Positions 19,810-56,916 of a DNA stretch of 64,000 nt are shown piece after piece. Each line of letters starts with the position of its first letter. Within the stretch, counting starts at the first letter, position 1. A program made the position numbers and the translations under genes. The stretch is from an uncultured Alphaproteobacteria bacterium. Its GTDB lineage: Bacteria; Pseudomonadota; Alphaproteobacteria; Rs-D84. Where the stretch lies: positions 1 to 64,000 of the forward strand of contig CAMRSV010000005.1 of assembly GCA_947053455.1 (NCBI GenBank). Direction: 5' to 3'. The notes below the pieces were generated by a model that was given only the letters and a program-made list of their open reading frames with translations, did not search any database and was not told the origin of the DNA.

Positions 19810-20018
19810 TTGCAAATAAAATTCATCATGCTATAATACCTGTGCCGTTGGGTGTTCCGATGGCGGGGTGTAGTTACTTCTATCATCCTATTCCAATTAA
19901 GGGATAGAAATTCTCCAATCTTATGTTGGAGGGTCGCGAATATATTGAATAAGCGACACTATAGATGATATAGTAACTAACCTCCAACCATCTGGATTTT
20001 CCAAATGGTTGTTTTTAT
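19810..20018 (+). ncRNA. Structured RNA element copy A, promoter TTGCAA-N16-TATAAT (19810-19837), RNA about 19842-20018
   Basis: 5' hairpin GCCGUUGG-GUGUU-CCGAUGGC; core GGAGG-GUCGC...GCGAC-ACUAU...AUAGU...CCUCC; terminator CCAUCUGGAUUUUCCAAAUGG-U5. Confidence 0.8.
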
Positions 20019-20036: not shown

Positions 20037-20144
20037 ATGCAACTGAAATCAATGGAACAAAATTCACAAAAAAAAACTGGAAAAAGAAGAACTGCTTTGC
20101 TGGTTGCTCTGTTTATATCTGTATATAGAAAGCATATACCTTAA
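20037..20144 (+). CDS. Small ORF downstream of element A, possibly frameshifted at an A9 tract
   Basis: MQLKSMEQNSQKK... with RBS AAGAGGA; the other frame stays open 20077-20235. Confidence 0.4.
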   Translation: MQLKSMEQNSQKKTGKRRTALLVALFISVYRKHIP

Positions 20145-20236
20145 ATTAAAACCTATATTAGAACCAGAAATAAAAAGACATAATGCCCGTGTAATCCGCG
20201 GCCGAAAAAATCAAAATTCAACAAATAAAAAATAAA

Positions 20237-20423: not shown

Positions 20424-20634
20424 TAAAAAACCACCGGATAAATCCAAGTGGCTGGAGGTTCACAACTATTACAAACGATAGTGCTGTTTATTTATATATA
20501 TCACAGCCCTCCAGCACAATGCGGGAGATTTGCAACCCGACAAAATGTCAGGAAGGTTTGTAAGGGGTTGTGACACCCCGCCATCGGAACACCCGACGGC
20601 ATAAGTATTATAACATGTGTAATTTAATTTGCAA
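20424..20634 (-). ncRNA. Structured RNA element copy B, promoter TTGCAA-N16-TATAAT (20607-20634), RNA about 20424-20602
   Basis: Hairpin GCCGUCGG-GUGUU-CCGAUGGC; GGGGUGUCACAACCCC; core GGAGGGCUGUGAUAUAUAUAAAUAAACAGCACUAU...AUAGU...CCUCC; terminator. Confidence 0.82.
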
Positions 20635-22775: not shown

Positions 22776-23023
22776 TTTACATTTTTCCTCATTTTATTTA
22801 TAGTTAATATGTCACGGTGAGTTACCGCGATGGGGCATAACAACCTCTATTAGGCGTCGGAATATAAACCAATTGGCGCATCGCGCCGTTTTTATTATTA
22901 CGACGATAAACAATCTCCTGATTTACAACTGGTCAGGAGGGCTGTCTAATAACCAATAAACAGCGCAATTCCTAATATTGTTGTTAACCTCCTGACCGTC
23001 AAAAATGGCGGTTTTTGTTTTTT
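22776..23023 (+). ncRNA. Structured RNA element copy C, promoter TTTACA-N17-TATAGT, RNA about 22812-23023
   Basis: Core CUCCUGA..UCAGGAGG-GCUGU...ACAGC...GUUAACCUCCUGACC; terminator CCGUC-AAAAAU-GGCGG-U5. Confidence 0.75.
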
Positions 23024-23041: not shown

Positions 23042-23650
23042 ATGAATAAAAAAATTTTTGTTATTTTAATGACGCCTGTGATTATCACAAATCACGCCAA
23101 CGCAATAGAACCATCAAATATATTATGTGATGTTTGCGCAGTCTATGCAGAATGTCTGCAAGAAGAATGTGCACCATATGCAGAAGAACAGCAAATACCT
23201 GATAACACTACAGTTGGAACTATATCCGCATATTGTCGTCAACACGTGCATGATGAATTGGATAATCAGGTGCCGTTTAATAGCACAATGATAGATAACT
23301 ATCTGTTATCAAACGAATTGGCCGACCAATTGGTTTATGACATATTAGGCGCCCAATTTGTCTATAAATGTAAATATGACGCGTCGTCAAATTCCTATTA
23401 TTGTGGATACGGGGATATATACGAGGCCTGCACTAATCAGCATACTAATGTATGCACTTGTCCCAACGGATATTATTTAAACTATGGAAGCTATAGCAAT
23501 GGACGCACGACACAATGCGTGCCATGCCCCGATTCCGGAACCAGCGATGGGGGCTCACTACAGAAAAACTGTTATTTACCAGCCAATTCAACATTCCGCG
23601 ACACAACCGGGAATGGTGAATATACTAACTCTTGCTACTATACTAATTAA
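23042..23650 (+). CDS. Secreted Cys-rich protein, downstream of element C
   Basis: Signal peptide; CDVCAVYAECLQEEC; C-terminal CVPCPDSG...NCYLP...DTTGNGEYTNSCYYTN. Confidence 0.8.
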   Translation: MNKKIFVILMTPVIITNHANAIEPSNILCDVCAVYAECLQEECAPYAEEQQIPDNTTVGTISAYCRQHVHDELDNQVPFNSTMIDNYLLSNELADQLVYDILGAQFVYKCKYDASSNSYYCGYGDIYEACTNQHTNVCTCPNGYYLNYGSYSNGRTTQCVPCPDSGTSDGGSLQKNCYLPANSTFRDTTGNGEYTNSCYYTN

Positions 23651-27295: not shown

Positions 27296-27489
27296 AACCG
27301 TTTGGAAAAACCAAACGGCTGGAGGTTAAGAACTATCAGTACAATAGTGCTGTTTATTTATGTATATCACAGCCCTCCAACCAATGGAGTTTTAATTTTA
27401 TGTCTTTCGACAGTACTGATGGGTTCTTACACCCATGCGCCGGTTCCCCTTTGCGGTATGAATTATAGCATATTATTTATCATTTGCAA
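27294..27489 (-). ncRNA. Structured RNA element copy D, promoter TTGCAA-N16-TATAAT (27462-27489), RNA about 27294-27458
   Basis: CUCCA..UUGGAGG-GCUGU-GAUAUACAUAAAUAA-ACAGC-ACUAUUGUACUGAUAGU...CCUCCAG; terminator CCGUUUGG-UUUUU-CCAAACGG. Confidence 0.8.
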
Positions 27490-41211: not shown

Positions 41212-41661
41212 TTACTGTGTGTATGCGCAATCAGCGGTATAGGAATACGTTCCGGTGGAATCTGTCATCTCTTGCCCCACCGGGATATAGCAATCAGTTA
41301 TTTCAACTTTTAATTTTATAAGGCCGTTATCATTATAAACAACATCCGGTGTTGTTCCACCGTTTGGGCAAGGAGCACAAAAACCGCTACTTAAACTGCC
41401 CGACCAATAATGCCCTTTTTCACATTTACCGGCGCCCCCACTTCCAGATTTCACACAATTACAACTTGCATCAACCGAATAACCGATATCGCATAACACG
41501 GAACTGCAGTCACACGCGCCACAACAATCGGCTGCTTTATAATATCCGCACGGGTACACACCACAAAACATACAGGTTGTGGATGCCGCATTGGCAGCAT
41601 ATGAAAATACACACAACTGAAACAAACAGAAAAAGAAATATTTTTGCATTTTTCGCCCCAT
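41212..41661 (-). CDS. Secreted Cys-rich protein, downstream of element F
   Basis: Signal peptide; CMFCGVYPCGYYKAADCCGACDC; C-terminal CAPCPNGGTT...DCYIP...DSTGTYSYTADCAYTQ. Confidence 0.8.
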   Translation of the reverse strand: MGRKMQKYFFFCLFQLCVFSYAANAASTTCMFCGVYPCGYYKAADCCGACDCSSVLCDIGYSVDASCNCVKSGSGGAGKCEKGHYWSGSLSSGFCAPCPNGGTTPDVVYNDNGLIKLKVEITDCYIPVGQEMTDSTGTYSYTADCAYTQ

Positions 41662-41673
41662 TTTTGTTTTAAC

Positions 41674-41951
41674 AAAACCGCCAGGAAATATGGCGGTCGG
41701 GGATTTGAAAAATCATAAATGAAAATGATCCCGTGGCTTTTGGGTGCGCACCCTGTTATATAACCACAGACCCCCGACCGTTCACGGTCGGGTGACAAAA
41801 CATGACGTATTACAAAAGCAATACCCATGCTTTCATTTCGGATTCAGCATGCAAAAAGTACATGCCGTTCATTTATGGGATTTTCAAGTCCCTGAGCCAG
41901 CATCCCTGTTGGTTCATGTCAAATTATAGTTTATTGCACAAATAAAAACAA
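41674..41951 (-). ncRNA. Structured RNA element copy F (divergent, longer), promoter TTGTTT-N17-TATAAT
   Basis: CCCGACCG-UGAA-CGGUCGGGG, CUGU-GGUUAUAUA-ACAG, downstream CCCCGACCG, terminator ACCGCCA...UGGCGGUUUU. Confidence 0.65.
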
Positions 41952-50003: not shown

Positions 50004-51155
50004 ATGAAATGCGCAAAATCTTTGGTGGCAATTATTACATGCACTGCAATCGGCCTTGTGCATAACGCCAACGCATGCACAGGAATCACTCTAAAAGCCA
50101 AGGACAAATCCGTTGTTGTCGCCAGAACAATTGACTGGTCCGGTTCAGAAATGAACAATATGTACGCAATTGTTCCACGCGGGCACGAAAGTCAATCTTT
50201 GCTGCCAAACGGCGGAACAGACGGAATGAAATTTACATCAAAATACGGTTACGTTGGATTGGCCGTTGAACAACCAGAATTTGTTGTTGACGGCACCAAC
50301 GAGGCTGGACTATCCGCGGGATTATTTTACTTTCCCGAATACGGCAAATACGAGCCATATAACCCAGATGATAAATCCAGTTCACTTGCAGACTTTCAAT
50401 TTGTTTCATGGATTTTGTCACAATTTTCAACCATAGACCAGGTCAAGGAAGCCATAAAAGACATTCATATCGTAAATATAGACAAACGTGCCGCCACCGT
50501 ACATTGGCGCATAGCCGAACCCAACGGGCGCGTTGTTGTATTGGAAATAGTCAACGGTGTTCCGACATTTTATGAAAACTCGCTGGGGGTACTGACAAAC
50601 GCACCCGGGTTCCCATGGCAAACAACTAATTTGAACAATTACGTAAATTTAAAACCTGGTACCGCCGGCCCAACAACAATGGGTTCGATAATACTGCGCG
50701 CCTTCGGCTCTGGTTCTGGATTCCTGGGGCTGCCGGGCGACTTTACGCCGCCATCGCGCTTTGTTCGCGCAGCATTCCTGCAATCTTATTCTGTACCCCA
50801 GGCAAATTCGTATGATTCAGTGATGCAGGCGTTTCATATACTAAATAATTTTGACGTACCACTTGGTGTGCAATTCGCCGCAGGCAAGGCACCCAACAAC
50901 ATGCCCAGCGCAACCCAATGGACAATTGCGACTGATTTGGATAACCGGATAATATATTATCACACCATGTATAACCGCACGTTGCGCAGTATAAACATGA
51001 TGGACATAAACTTTGAAACGGTTCCATATCAGTATCATTCCCTAGATACAGTACAGCGTCAAACGATTGTCCCGGTTGAAATAAGCACAACCGCATCCGT
51101 CGCCGAGCCCATGCGCACGGTTCAAGAAATCGGGAACAAAGTGTTTAATCGATAA
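50004..51155 (+). CDS. Choloylglycine hydrolase/penicillin acylase-family Ntn hydrolase with signal peptide
   Basis: Signal peptide then NACTGITLKAKD...VVARTIDWSGSEM; candidate nucleophile Cys right after the predicted cleavage site. Confidence 0.88.
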   Translation: MKCAKSLVAIITCTAIGLVHNANACTGITLKAKDKSVVVARTIDWSGSEMNNMYAIVPRGHESQSLLPNGGTDGMKFTSKYGYVGLAVEQPEFVVDGTNEAGLSAGLFYFPEYGKYEPYNPDDKSSSLADFQFVSWILSQFSTIDQVKEAIKDIHIVNIDKRAATVHWRIAEPNGRVVVLEIVNGVPTFYENSLGVLTNAPGFPWQTTNLNNYVNLKPGTAGPTTMGSIILRAFGSGSGFLGLPGDFTPPSRFVRAAFLQSYSVPQANSYDSVMQAFHILNNFDVPLGVQFAAGKAPNNMPSATQWTIATDLDNRIIYYHTMYNRTLRSINMMDINFETVPYQYHSLDTVQRQTIVPVEISTTASVAEPMRTVQEIGNKVFNR

Positions 51156-52511: not shown

Positions 52512-52955
52512 TTATTGCGCATTTTCCGGCCGCGCGGCGCTAAACATATCAGACGCCGGCGCTTCGTCATCAGTTTCGGTTACGTATGGCGCGTTACCTA
52601 AAAGCTCATCCTGAAGCTGGTTTTCATGTTTCTGTTTTTTCTTTGTGCTATGCAAACCTTCGTCATATGCAACCCAATGCATGCCATCTGTCCAGAAATC
52701 CAGGCCAAACATAAATATTTTTAGCAAAAAGCTGGGCGGTATGCGCAGTTTGCCGTATTCGAATTTACTTAACAGGCTGGACGGTATACCCATATATTCG
52801 GCCATTTGTTGACGCGATACACCCAACAGGCAACGCGCCCGATACAGCAGTAACGACGGCGGCAATACTTGTGAAAATTTACCCAATGCGACTGGCGGCA
52901 ATTTGTATGGCTGCGGTGCAGTGTCGCCTGTCCGCTGATTTAATGTTATTGTCAT
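52512..52955 (-). CDS. XRE-family HTH protein, downstream of element E
   Basis: LLYRARCLLGVSRQQMAEYMGIPSSLLSKFEYGKLRIPPSFLLKIF. Confidence 0.8.
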   Translation of the reverse strand: MTITLNQRTGDTAPQPYKLPPVALGKFSQVLPPSLLLYRARCLLGVSRQQMAEYMGIPSSLLSKFEYGKLRIPPSFLLKIFMFGLDFWTDGMHWVAYDEGLHSTKKKQKHENQLQDELLGNAPYVTETDDEAPASDMFSAARPENAQ

Positions 52956-52980
52956 TTTTTACTCCATGTTTTGATTAAAC

Positions 52981-53174
52981 AAAACCGTTTGGAAAAACCA
53001 AACGGCTGGAGGTTTACAGCTATTCAAGAATAGTCGCGTTTATTTAGATATATCACGCGCCTCCAGCCAAACTGGAGTTTGCATTGTCATTTCTGACACT
53101 TGATAAGGCTGTAACACCTTGCGCCGGGATTCCCTTTGCGATGTGTATTATATCATAAAATTTGATGTATGCAA
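52981..53174 (-). ncRNA. Structured RNA element copy E, promoter TTGCAT-N16-TATAAT (53147-53174), RNA about 52981-53142
   Basis: CUCCAG-UUUGG-CUGGAGG; CGCGU-GAUAUAUCUAAAUAA-ACGCG; CUAUUC-UU-GAAUAG; CCUCCAG; terminator identical to copy D. Confidence 0.82.
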
Positions 53175-53235: not shown

Positions 53236-56200
53236 CTATATCCCCAAACGGTGGGACATTTTCAGCATGAATATGGATTCATTTCCGAATTCATCCGTAT
53301 TGTTGGGATTCACGCGGTAAATAAATCCGACCGCACCATCCGTAAATTGGCCGAAATTATGACGGTACGCGGCGCTAAAACGCAATTCGCGGTGTTCCGG
53401 AGACAACAAAACATTCGCCACATATGCATCACGCACCACCAAATCATATTTCCCATCATCCGTTTCAACAACGTCATAGTCGGAATATGCGTATTTCATC
53501 GCACCACGTGTCACCGTCAGTGGCCGCGACATAGTTAGACTGAAATTACCGGCATCTACAGCGAACGCGAAAGAGTTCGAATCCATGTGACTCAGCCCAA
53601 GTATATTTTGCCCGGCCGCATCCGCAGTCGTACGCGCAAATGTTGAACGCGCCGTAAATGTCAGGTTTTCACGCGGCGCATAGCGCAATTCGGTGTCAAC
53701 ATACAACGTGTCACCTGCCCCCATATCCAACAGGCCGCCCGTCTGCGCCCCCAGCAAAGTTTCTGTTTCACGCGCGGCACCAACAGATGCATTAAATCCA
53801 AATTTTTCGCCATGCCACCCAATATGTGTTTCCGCACCATATATCCCGCCAAGACGCGCCGGCGTATATTGCGATGAAATTGTCGGGTCGTTTTCCAATA
53901 ATCCGTCATCCGTTATGGCGCCCGAAAACGCGCGACCACCAAAACGCCATTGTCCCGATTTGAAATTCGTGTCAAACGTCACCGCGTTTGATGCCATTGC
54001 CCAAATAGGGTTATGCATTCCGTCAAAGCGTGACGCGCCATCTGTCAGATACCGTTGATAAGATGCCGCCATGTCCCAATTATCGGTTGCATAGTCTAAT
54101 TTGATATTATCAAGCCCCCCCAGATTATCCGAATACGACTTTTCCGATGCGGCTATTGAAAAACCGATATTTCCAATCTGAACGCGCGGGGCGTCAACAT
54201 TGTGCGTTTTAAATTCACCCAAAACATCGCCCATATAGAGTCCATGCTTGTCAGTTGCACCAATTGCAAATTCATTTTGCCACACACGCGGCAGTTTTAA
54301 TTCACCATCAATGCTTTCCAATATGTCATAGAACGGTGCACTAATTGATGCGGCGCGCGGGCGCAACGCGCTTGACGCACGGAACAAAGTATTTGATGCC
54401 GAACGCCAATACGCGTTTCCGTTTCCGCTGACGATTTTGTTGGCCGCCGGGTCATAGAAATATATTTTTGATGTCGGCTTGGTCGCACGTTCTAGGTTTA
54501 TCAAGCCATATCCGAAAACTTCCTTGAAAACCTCAAGATAATCTTCACCATTATCAACACGGAACTGATATTCGGACGGCAACTCATACATTGACTGCAG
54601 ATGCGCGGTCAATGTTTCCTTGGTCAACGGCGTGCCACTGGTTGATGTGCCAAGATATGCCCCATCGGCAGTCAATGCCATCAAGGTAAACAATTGTTGA
54701 TTTGTCATCATGCCACTCATACCAGAAAAGGCAGACTTTAATACACCGGCCGCCCCCGCCGCCGCCGCGGTTGCCAATTCATCCGTTAAACCGGCCGCCG
54801 CAAAACACCACGGGTCAACACCATTTGCACCCTTGCCGGCAACACCACATGCACGTGCCCTGTATTCCGTATCGCCAATCGCCCATTGGGATAAACCGAT
54901 TTTCCCGGACGGGGAATAACCGGAAACATCAGACGCCCCGGACGTGCCCGCACCATGTGCGCCAACCGCCACAATGGACATAAACAAATGCGACATGTTG
55001 TTGCCAAATATAAGTGGCGCCGCATTTTCAAATGTCGCCGTCAAAGTTTTTCCGGAATAATTCGGCCCTGTTTCAAACGCCCCGGTTGAAAAAAGCACCA
55101 ATGGAGAATAAGACGCCCCCAGCCCTTGAAAGAAAGTAAGCGCGTCCGCACCGGGTGTCGAACTGTCATTTTTGTTTAAATCATAAATATCGTTTATGTA
55201 TTTATAAAAAGCCTCGCTGCGTGCGGTGGCATTTGACCCCGCTGACAAAATATCATCAATAGTGTGCGCCGTATCCAGATGCAGTGGCGCGATAACATTT
55301 GTATTTGCAATCACATCCACACGTGAACGTCCGCCGGACAAATCAGAACTTGCTTTGGCATGTTCCGACGCGTTTAGCATTGCCTCGTAATTTTTGTAGT
55401 CAATTACGCCTGTTTCCTTGGCAATGGTCATATCACCATTTTCCAACTTATATGCAACATCAATTTTTTTATCGCCATTATTGTCGATATACAGCAGACC
55501 GTCCGCACCTATATAACCGTTATACTCAACGGTATCATTTTTTGCCACAATCTTTGTTCCGGTTTTAGTTACAGTCAATACCGTACCATCGGTTAGCGTA
55601 ATCTTGCTTAATACACCATCAGTCGTTTCATATGTGCCGATTTGTGTTTTTTCAGCAGCCTCTACCATGCCGACACCACCACCGGTGCGATAAATTGACA
55701 TTTGTCCGTTCGGCATAAATCCCAGGAAATCGCCACCGGGAAATCCGGACTGGGCACCGCCGACAATTTGCGCCAACAAATTGTCGCGACCACTGGCGTA
55801 TAAATTGTTCACGGCCGTACCAGAACCGGACAAATCCATTTCATCTAAAATGCTGCCGTCTTCGGTCGTGTACGCATCAACCAATTTTGTTTCATCCGTG
55901 TTGCCCAAAACAATAAGATTATTGTAATATTTACTAGAAAAGTTTGTAATTTCCGGATGCGTTTCGGGAATACCACCCGTAATTGTGGTCCACGCCAACA
56001 GCCTGTCATCCAGTGACCCAGTTTGCGCCGTGACCGTGCCGTCGCCCTTTGGTTTCGGTGCGGCGTTAACCCCGTTTTCGGTAACCAGCGCAACACCTGT
56101 CGGACGGCCACCGCCAACCTCTATCCCCTTTATATTTATTGGCCCCAACACAGTGTTTGGCACAGGCGACCCATTGGCATAACGCAGTGTTCGCATCCCC

Positions 56201-56916
56201 AGATACCCGCGCGCCCACGGTGAATAGCCGTGCATCAACAACATATAATTTTGACCACCCAGATTCTCTGAATTTTGCCCCAGCGCATTCATTACTTTAA
56301 ATGAATCTAGGTATGGCGACGCGCTATACAAATCCAAGTTTTTGATATAATTTTCCTTTTCTGCGGTGGCGTCAACCATGGCCGGGCCATATGGAATCGT
56401 AAATGTGGGCGTCACAGGATTTATCGGCGTACCGCCGCCGCCATCACCACCGGGTCTATCACCACCGGTTGGCGGATTGTCGTTATCGTTGCTTGGGTCA
56501 AAAACATCTGTTAATAAAAACAGCCCCCCTACAACAACGGCGGCACCCGCCGCCGCCAATGCTATGCTTTGGGCAGAAGAAAGCCCGCCGAACAATCCCC
56601 CGCTGGCCTTGGGCTTGGTACGGTTATTATACTGCTTTATCTGGCGGTCACAATTTGACGCATCTGCACCATACATCTGCAAAATTTGCGCCGCACGAAT
56701 ATCATTATTCATCAACGCCGTACAAACAATGGACAAACCCGTACTGTCGATATAATTTATATTTGCGCCATTATTGACAAGAATCTGCACCTGCTGAATA
56801 TCGGCATTTTTTGCCGCCGACAACAATTGCGCAGCAATTGTAAAATCATTCGTCGCCGCATGCAGTGCACATGGCATTACAAATATTGCAAATACTAAAA
56901 GTCTGATATATTTCAT
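53236..56916 (-). CDS. Autotransporter: ankyrin-like N-terminus, degenerate subtilase-like passenger, C-terminal beta-barrel
   Basis: 1226 aa; signal peptide, VQILVNNGANINYIDSTGLSIVCTALMNND, VFGYGLINLERA subtilase-like end, C-terminal barrel ending ...MLKMSHRLGI. Confidence 0.8.
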   Translation of the reverse strand: MKYIRLLVFAIFVMPCALHAATNDFTIAAQLLSAAKNADIQQVQILVNNGANINYIDSTGLSIVCTALMNNDIRAAQILQMYGADASNCDRQIKQYNNRTKPKASGGLFGGLSSAQSIALAAAGAAVVVGGLFLLTDVFDPSNDNDNPPTGGDRPGGDGGGGTPINPVTPTFTIPYGPAMVDATAEKENYIKNLDLYSASPYLDSFKVMNALGQNSENLGGQNYMLLMHGYSPWARGYLGMRTLRYANGSPVPNTVLGPINIKGIEVGGGRPTGVALVTENGVNAAPKPKGDGTVTAQTGSLDDRLLAWTTITGGIPETHPEITNFSSKYYNNLIVLGNTDETKLVDAYTTEDGSILDEMDLSGSGTAVNNLYASGRDNLLAQIVGGAQSGFPGGDFLGFMPNGQMSIYRTGGGVGMVEAAEKTQIGTYETTDGVLSKITLTDGTVLTVTKTGTKIVAKNDTVEYNGYIGADGLLYIDNNGDKKIDVAYKLENGDMTIAKETGVIDYKNYEAMLNASEHAKASSDLSGGRSRVDVIANTNVIAPLHLDTAHTIDDILSAGSNATARSEAFYKYINDIYDLNKNDSSTPGADALTFFQGLGASYSPLVLFSTGAFETGPNYSGKTLTATFENAAPLIFGNNMSHLFMSIVAVGAHGAGTSGASDVSGYSPSGKIGLSQWAIGDTEYRARACGVAGKGANGVDPWCFAAAGLTDELATAAAAGAAGVLKSAFSGMSGMMTNQQLFTLMALTADGAYLGTSTSGTPLTKETLTAHLQSMYELPSEYQFRVDNGEDYLEVFKEVFGYGLINLERATKPTSKIYFYDPAANKIVSGNGNAYWRSASNTLFRASSALRPRAASISAPFYDILESIDGELKLPRVWQNEFAIGATDKHGLYMGDVLGEFKTHNVDAPRVQIGNIGFSIAASEKSYSDNLGGLDNIKLDYATDNWDMAASYQRYLTDGASRFDGMHNPIWAMASNAVTFDTNFKSGQWRFGGRAFSGAITDDGLLENDPTISSQYTPARLGGIYGAETHIGWHGEKFGFNASVGAARETETLLGAQTGGLLDMGAGDTLYVDTELRYAPRENLTFTARSTFARTTADAAGQNILGLSHMDSNSFAFAVDAGNFSLTMSRPLTVTRGAMKYAYSDYDVVETDDGKYDLVVRDAYVANVLLSPEHRELRFSAAYRHNFGQFTDGAVGFIYRVNPNNTDEFGNESIFMLKMSHRLGI

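Follow-up and report, generated by a model that had tools for sequence, protein, structure and literature searches.

The window analysed here is a stretch of 64,000 nucleotides from the genome of an uncultured alphaproteobacterium. Positions 52985-53120 on its minus strand form a structured leader, designated copy E, which serves the gene for an HTH protein (Table 1). Read 5' to 3', the region consists of a hairpin (P0), hp1 with Y' in its loop, X', hp2, the segments S1 and S2, hp3, P3 with X in its loop, Y, S3, a terminator hairpin with its U-run, an SD and the ATG. By analogy, Y' is regarded as an upstream target of the a1 type (see below). TATAAT-like boxes are found 5' of hp1 in 60 of 98 copies, against 30 in one shuffle. 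An Rfam scan of the window at gathering threshold returned tRNAs only, and weak matches of copy E to MicF and RcsR1 were dismissed as chance. Just upstream of the copy E promoter, an ORF at 53236-56916 (minus strand) specifies a 1226-residue protein with an ankyrin-like N-terminus below the Pfam cut-off, possibly a large surface protein. The gene at 50004-51155 (plus strand) specifies a choloylglycine-hydrolase family protein (PF02275), which in a gut alphaproteobacterium of reduced genome might be a bile-salt hydrolase.

A covariance model built in the present analysis (R1) identified 50 copies of the leader in the genome from which the window is taken (915 kb, 21 contigs). The Rfam model RF02221 (sRNA-Xcc1) added two more, window copy F and a copy at C1:189038, bringing the total to 52, six of them in the window. 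Eighteen of the 52 copies lie in tandem sets, and tandem leaders with an assignable gene are mostly found before small HTH genes. Rows of two to four leaders are seen at L506, L507, L501, L494, L504, L505 and L477; several of these tandem neighbours have common pairing addresses, and at L501 one partner suits its neighbour better than itself. Contigs C3, C4, C7, C10, C14, C18 and C19 of genome G000 end at or near leader copies; the repeats may interrupt the assembly, in which case the actual number of copies would be higher. The ORF after copy A (about 20037-20145, plus strand) is only 35 residues long and holds a run of nine A; it could be a disrupted gene or a site of slippage.

Table 1. Positions of the leader copies, their elements and the associated genes in the window.
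Feature	Positions	Strand	Evidence
Copy E promoter -10 box (TATAATACAC, TATAAT-type)	53143-53152	-	sequence
P0, 5' hairpin of copy E	53122-53140	-	sequence
hp1, loop carries Y' (53108-53114)	53105-53120	-	compensatory changes in hp1 and in Y':Y
X', partner of X, b1-like	53099-53103	-	X':X in 97/99 copies vs 29% swapped
hp2, variable hairpin	53085-53099	-	alignment of copies
S1, CTCCAG, putative anti-antiterminator; upstream segment of the preliminary description	53072-53077	-	partner-swap test on 99 homologues
S2, GGCTGGAGG, 5' strand of closing stem P1 (c4-like core); central segment of the preliminary description	53060-53068	-	compensation and partner-swap test
hp3 (P2) with conserved AAUA-type internal loop	53035-53059	-	compensation (State II set), sequence
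P3 hairpin, X (b'-like) in loop	53020-53034	-	compensation (State I set), X':X swap test
Y (a'-like), partner of Y'	53014-53020	-	99.4% of cells paired, 6/7 pairs compensated
S3, CCTCCAGCC, 3' strand of P1; downstream segment of the preliminary description	53004-53012	-	compensation and partner-swap test
Copy E intrinsic terminator hairpin	52985-53005	-	sequence and fold
U-run 3' of copy E terminator hairpin	52977-52984	-	sequence
Copy E putatively regulated gene, 147-aa HTH protein	52512-52955	-	Pfam HTH_3
Copy A (S1 19913-19918, S2 19925-19932, S3 19981-19988)	19865-20008	+	R1 115.8 bits
Further copy, before 56-aa ORF	20431-20579	-	R1 106.8 bits
Copy C (S1 22915-22921, S2 22932-22940, S3 22988-22996)	22832-23012	+	R1 49.6 bits
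Copy C gene, 202-aa protein with signal-like N-terminus	23042-23650	+	no Pfam match
Further copy, before 61-aa ORF	27298-27435	-	R1 144.9 bits
Copy F; RF02221 match at 41687-41779	41678-41893	-	RF02221 43.2 bits, E 9.3e-7
Copy F gene, Cys-rich protein with signal-like N-terminus	41212-41661	-	no Pfam match

An order-level survey gave matches in 179 of 201 genomes, one genome carrying 55 copies. At the class level, 13 of 289 sampled genomes matched, three of the 13 being from the window's own genus; leaders in several other alphaproteobacterial families are diverged in sequence and constant in architecture. Among 399 Pseudomonadota genomes sampled, R1 matched members of the window's own genus only and nothing outside the alphaproteobacteria. 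The named relatives are MAGs assigned to Candidatus Enterousia, other alphaproteobacteria, 'proteobacterium' or 'Rickettsiales', many of them from the guts of ruminants, horses and other animals. Two IMG/VR viral contigs (L310:12040-12188 and L311:788-936) have a window-class leader of equal score and length; carriage of the derived leader form (see below) by phage is a possibility.

The leaders can adopt two mutually exclusive folds. State II combines a long-range helix (Y':Y and X':X) with S1:S2 pairing and leaves the intrinsic terminator free. State I is a three-stem cloverleaf closed by S2:S3, which sequesters the initial bases of the terminator. Both were scored on an alignment of 99 copies (A2) that had been fitted to the State II helices, and is hence biased towards them, and that had not been fitted to the helices of State I. 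The State II set (Y':Y, S1:S2, hp3 and terminator) has 95.3% of cells paired and 22 of 23 pairs compensated, with a covariation of 0.61 compared to 0.18 when shuffled; a MAFFT alignment of 13 copies gave the same picture. For the State I set (hp1, P3 and S2:S3), 93.0% of cells are paired, compared to 85% after shuffling and 39-58% with slid controls, and compensation is seen in 13 of 19 pairs (covariation 0.30 versus 0.16 shuffled). X':X reaches a score of at least 5 in the great majority of copies (97/99, against 29% with partners swapped). S2:S3 scores at least 7 in 95 of 99 homologues and S1:S2 at least 6 in 78, the means with partners swapped between loci being 52 and 43, respectively. The AAUA-type internal loop of hp3 is kept in 92 of 99 copies. 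Among the 27 different 8-mers seen for S2, the alignment is plausible for about 25; S1 and S3 usually track each of them, which is direct evidence for selection on S1:S2 as well as on S2:S3. The shuffles and swaps leave kinship between copies in place, and the resulting figures should not be read as probabilities.

These results bear on a preliminary description of the window, in which the region had been read as a transcription-attenuation switch whose central segment pairs with either an upstream or a downstream one. The segments quoted for copies A, C, E and F are all present. The alternative pairing held, being found more often than expected by chance on the 99 homologues, as did the claim that the three segments change together between copies: S1, S2 and S3 covary through about 25 sequence types. 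The downstream pairing had been proposed to enter the 5' arm of the terminator, and S2:S3 does reach two to three bases into it; in copy E, S3 shares the first two bases of the terminator stem. Lack of conservation of the third segment in homologues, which would have refuted the proposal, was looked for and not found. The inference of an attenuation switch with an antiterminator is supported by comparison, its function being unproven by experiment. What had been missed is the strand, the approximately 46 other copies in the genome and a further, more extensive set of alternative pairings, in which Y':Y and X':X compete with hp1 and the ACTAT/ATAGT hairpin.

Calculated up to S3, the long-range fold of copy E is favoured by 3.0 kcal/mol (-37.5 versus -34.5 kcal/mol, close to balance), and over 92 copies by a median of 8.5 kcal/mol. 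With S2:S3 imposed on the window copies, P3 and hp1 (the latter shifted in copy A) formed unprompted, yielding the three-stem cloverleaf. The nearest-neighbour energies take no account of a pseudoknot that Y':Y and S2:S3 might form.

Judged by sequence and fold, an intrinsic terminator sits between the leader and the start codon; termination itself is a prediction. In 85 of 98 copies, S3 is followed by a terminator hairpin and a U-tract, scored as at least five T in the first eight nucleotides 3' of the hairpin. The SD and ATG usually lie about 20-45 nt further on. Short ORFs preceded by an SD were found in 13 of 98 leaders, compared to a mean of 20 in shuffled sequences, and a leader-peptide attenuator was dismissed on these grounds. 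A search for a second XY target at the ribosome-binding site of window-class loci revealed no excess over swapped partners.

In the window's genome, the genes after the leaders specify small HTH proteins and secreted or Cys-rich proteins. Most of 80 downstream proteins from many genomes have no Pfam family; those recognized are OMP beta-barrels, surface antigens, OmpW/OmpA, YadA anchor, autotransporter, trypsin-like and HTH proteins. Signal-peptide calls were made with a crude script, which flagged some HTH proteins too, and the numbers were not used as statistics.

The 3' half of the leader (S2, hp3 with its AAUA loop, P3, Y and S3) resembles RF02221, the layout of which (P1, P2 with the AAUA loop, P3, then Y ahead of the 3' strand of P1) is reproduced in the leaders. 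The Rfam model is only 87 nt long, covers S2 to S3 alone and has a gathering score of 53 bits. In the window's genome, only the copy at C1:189038 exceeds this value (55.5 bits); copy F scored 43.2 bits and copy E gave no match. Distant copies scored 24-34 bits, those of G289 27-34. Three sites (G000 C13:1970, G135 C4:23058 and G135 C2:55294) are matched independently, on the same strand, by R1 and RF02221.

Bona fide RF02221 loci, from phages and other proteobacteria, were found to possess the Y' and X' partners of the window class in their unmodelled upstream region. In 29 such loci, Y' is present in 83% and X' in 72% (12% and 9% with partners swapped), and second copies of these partners precede the next ATG in 41% and 62% (11% and 7% swapped). 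Among 88 viral loci, upstream partners were detected for Y in 60% and for X in 77% (27% and 17% swapped) and downstream partners in 57% and 73%, respectively (15% and 8% swapped). Where both downstream copies are present, Y'' and X'' typically lie on either side of the SD, at about -26 and -15, respectively, relative to the ATG. The downstream genes of this phage class are antirepressors (P22_AR, KilA-N, Bro-N, AntA, Rha and ORF6N). SymE is found downstream at other RF02221 loci, and sRNA-Xcc1 lies upstream of symE in Xanthomonas integrons (PMC12444791). Near one RF02221 locus, two Rfam TwoAYGGAY matches were observed (L327:2372-2857). The two classes differ in several respects. RF02221 is treated as a trans-acting sRNA in the literature found, whereas the window class is a leader before a gene. 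The latter has a terminator after S3 and an S1 partner, for which no significant signal was detectable in the phage class, and is without the second target at the ribosome-binding site. Instead of antirepressors or SymE, its genes encode HTH and surface proteins.

The element order, an upstream a1b1 followed by a three-stem core with a' and b', is also that of c4 from phages P1 and P7 (RF01695, c4-2, c4-a1b1). The antisense core of c4 is cut by RNase P; b' partly blocks the RBS and a' confers specificity (PMC5320573). The c4 gene is in an operon with ant (PMC8198154), and further features of C4 are given in PMC12197685. The a1b1 element lies upstream of c4. A separately named motif is c4-a1b1 (PMC2864571). 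In the leaders, the three-stem core is present, folds with S2:S3 enforced giving the closing stem, hp3 and P3 with the antisense stretches X and Y, and the a1b1 complementary to a'b' is matched by Y':Y and X':X, likewise at RF02221 loci. A target of the a2b2 kind, on both sides of the following gene's RBS, is absent from the window class but present in the RF02221/phage class; a downstream antirepressor operon is likewise absent from the window class and present in the phage class. The window class ends in a terminator and is found in about 50 copies across a bacterial genome. The Rfam C4 model RF01695 matched none of six genomes, the control genomes likewise giving no positive; without such a match, what is shown is an architecture shared with P1 c4, not common descent. 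An RCC after the 9-bp P1 in 54 of 99 copies is merely consistent with a cut by RNase P where P1 begins on its 5' side, a possibility inferred from sequence alone.

Acinetobacter baumannii has a large group of C4-like sRNAs, cut from longer transcripts (PMC5320573). These Group 1 RNAs resemble the window class in that one genome contains numerous C4-type RNAs whose specificity loops vary; they are described as free sRNAs, whereas the window class consists of leaders with a terminator and a gene. Attenuators of the pT181 plasmid type, like the leaders, use mutually exclusive segments that decide terminator formation. Their antisense RNA comes from the opposite strand, whereas the window class has both partners on one transcript. 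The window copies would be a derived form, with the ribosome-site target gone, an intrinsic terminator present and an address of its own in nearly every copy. Fifty of the 51 X cores in the window's genome are distinct. Compatibility was seen for 27 of 2550 ordered cross pairs, a number of which involve tandem neighbours or recent duplicates; hence each RNA mainly suits its own leader. Cross-pairing within genomes is no lower than between genomes, so that avoidance of shared addresses is not demonstrated, although the addresses differ, and selection for orthogonal addresses remains unsupported.

In the absence of expression data, the leaders are likely to be cis-acting transcription attenuators built on a c4-type plan and OFF by default. 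That a mutually exclusive antiterminator and anti-antiterminator are both conserved is shown by comparison. Attenuation is strongly indicated, with termination and antitermination predicted and not assayed; terminator function, the OFF default and antitermination by the cloverleaf are inferences. In this model, each copy would decide whether RNA polymerase reaches the gene, by means of an upstream Y'X' (a1b1) followed by a c4-like core in which S2:S3 is P1, hp3 is P2 and b' (X) is presented by P3, with a' (Y) next in order. By default, XY would pair back with Y'X' while S1 holds S2, leaving S3 free and allowing the terminator to form. In the ON state, hp1 and P3 would form and the S2:S3 cloverleaf would capture the base of the terminator, so that transcription continues. 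Energy minimization gives the OFF fold, so that some unknown factor has to be postulated for the ON state. The likeliest trigger, whose identity is unknown, would be something occupying the long-range helix: an RNA, such as an RNase P-processed core, or a protein on the AAUA loop. Against the attenuator model, antiterminator and terminator share no more than 2-3 bp, and it is possible that the terminator is not fully disabled.

The copies might instead be mainly trans-acting c4-like sRNAs, in which case the terminator would just end the sRNA and the downstream gene would be incidental. This finds some backing in the description of RF02221 as a trans-acting sRNA (PMC2996969; PMC12444791), in the processing of the Acinetobacter C4-like group from longer transcripts (PMC5320573) and in the RCC after P1 (54/99 copies), which fits RNase P processing. 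However, with SD and ATG usually about 20-45 nt past the terminator there is scant room for another promoter, nearly all X cores are distinct (50/51), almost all cross-pairings fail (27/2550 compatible), and both S1 and the overlap of S3 with the terminator are left unexplained; we consider a mainly trans-acting role unlikely. Complete lack of a regulatory role is less likely still. A dispersed, MITE-like mobile repeat with its own promoter and terminator could account for 52 copies in 0.9 Mb and for the several contigs ending at copies, but it is contradicted by compensation at the majority of base pairs in two folds that exclude each other, by an architecture that stays constant in diverged sequences, within the order and in several further families of alphaproteobacteria, and by constant placement before ORFs.

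It could also be envisaged that the leader is an orphan riboswitch or a protein-binding leader, the fold being selected by a small molecule or by an RNA-binding protein on hp3 with its AAUA loop. Conservation of the AAUA-type loop in 92 of 99 copies speaks for this view. Against it, no other invariant aptamer-like core was seen, the gene set is not metabolic, and the phage relatives can pair with ribosome-binding sites instead; as a full account it is improbable. The preliminary description had suggested a small-molecule ligand, for which no support was obtained, the closest relative being an antisense-type RNA. A c-di-GMP riboswitch, an idea drawn from the surface-protein gene set, is unlikely since diguanylate cyclase (GGDEF) is absent from the ten genomes tested of the window's genus and family. 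A bound factor may still be the trigger within the attenuator reading.

A bolder version of the attenuator model, which we regard as unlikely, is that a phage immunity RNA module has been domesticated and multiplied into about 50 self-addressed transcription switches that serve surface-protein genes across the genome, with positive feedback giving each gene heritable ON and OFF states without DNA change. The core released by RNase P from one round of transcription would bind Y'X' in the nascent RNA made in the following round at that locus; with Y'X' bound in trans, the XY in cis would be kept free and the antiterminating cloverleaf favoured.

The leader, of which no description was found in the sources searched, is present in the majority of genomes from one order of gut alphaproteobacteria with reduced genomes. 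It links three things that have stood separately: the virulence-associated orphan sRNA-Xcc1, the phage c4 immunity RNA and an order-wide leader. If the relationship proves true, sRNA-Xcc1 would have to be re-read as a regulator of the adjoining antirepressor or symE gene. A bacterium with less than 1 Mb of DNA maintains about 50 such leaders on surface and HTH genes, nearly each with its own RNA address.
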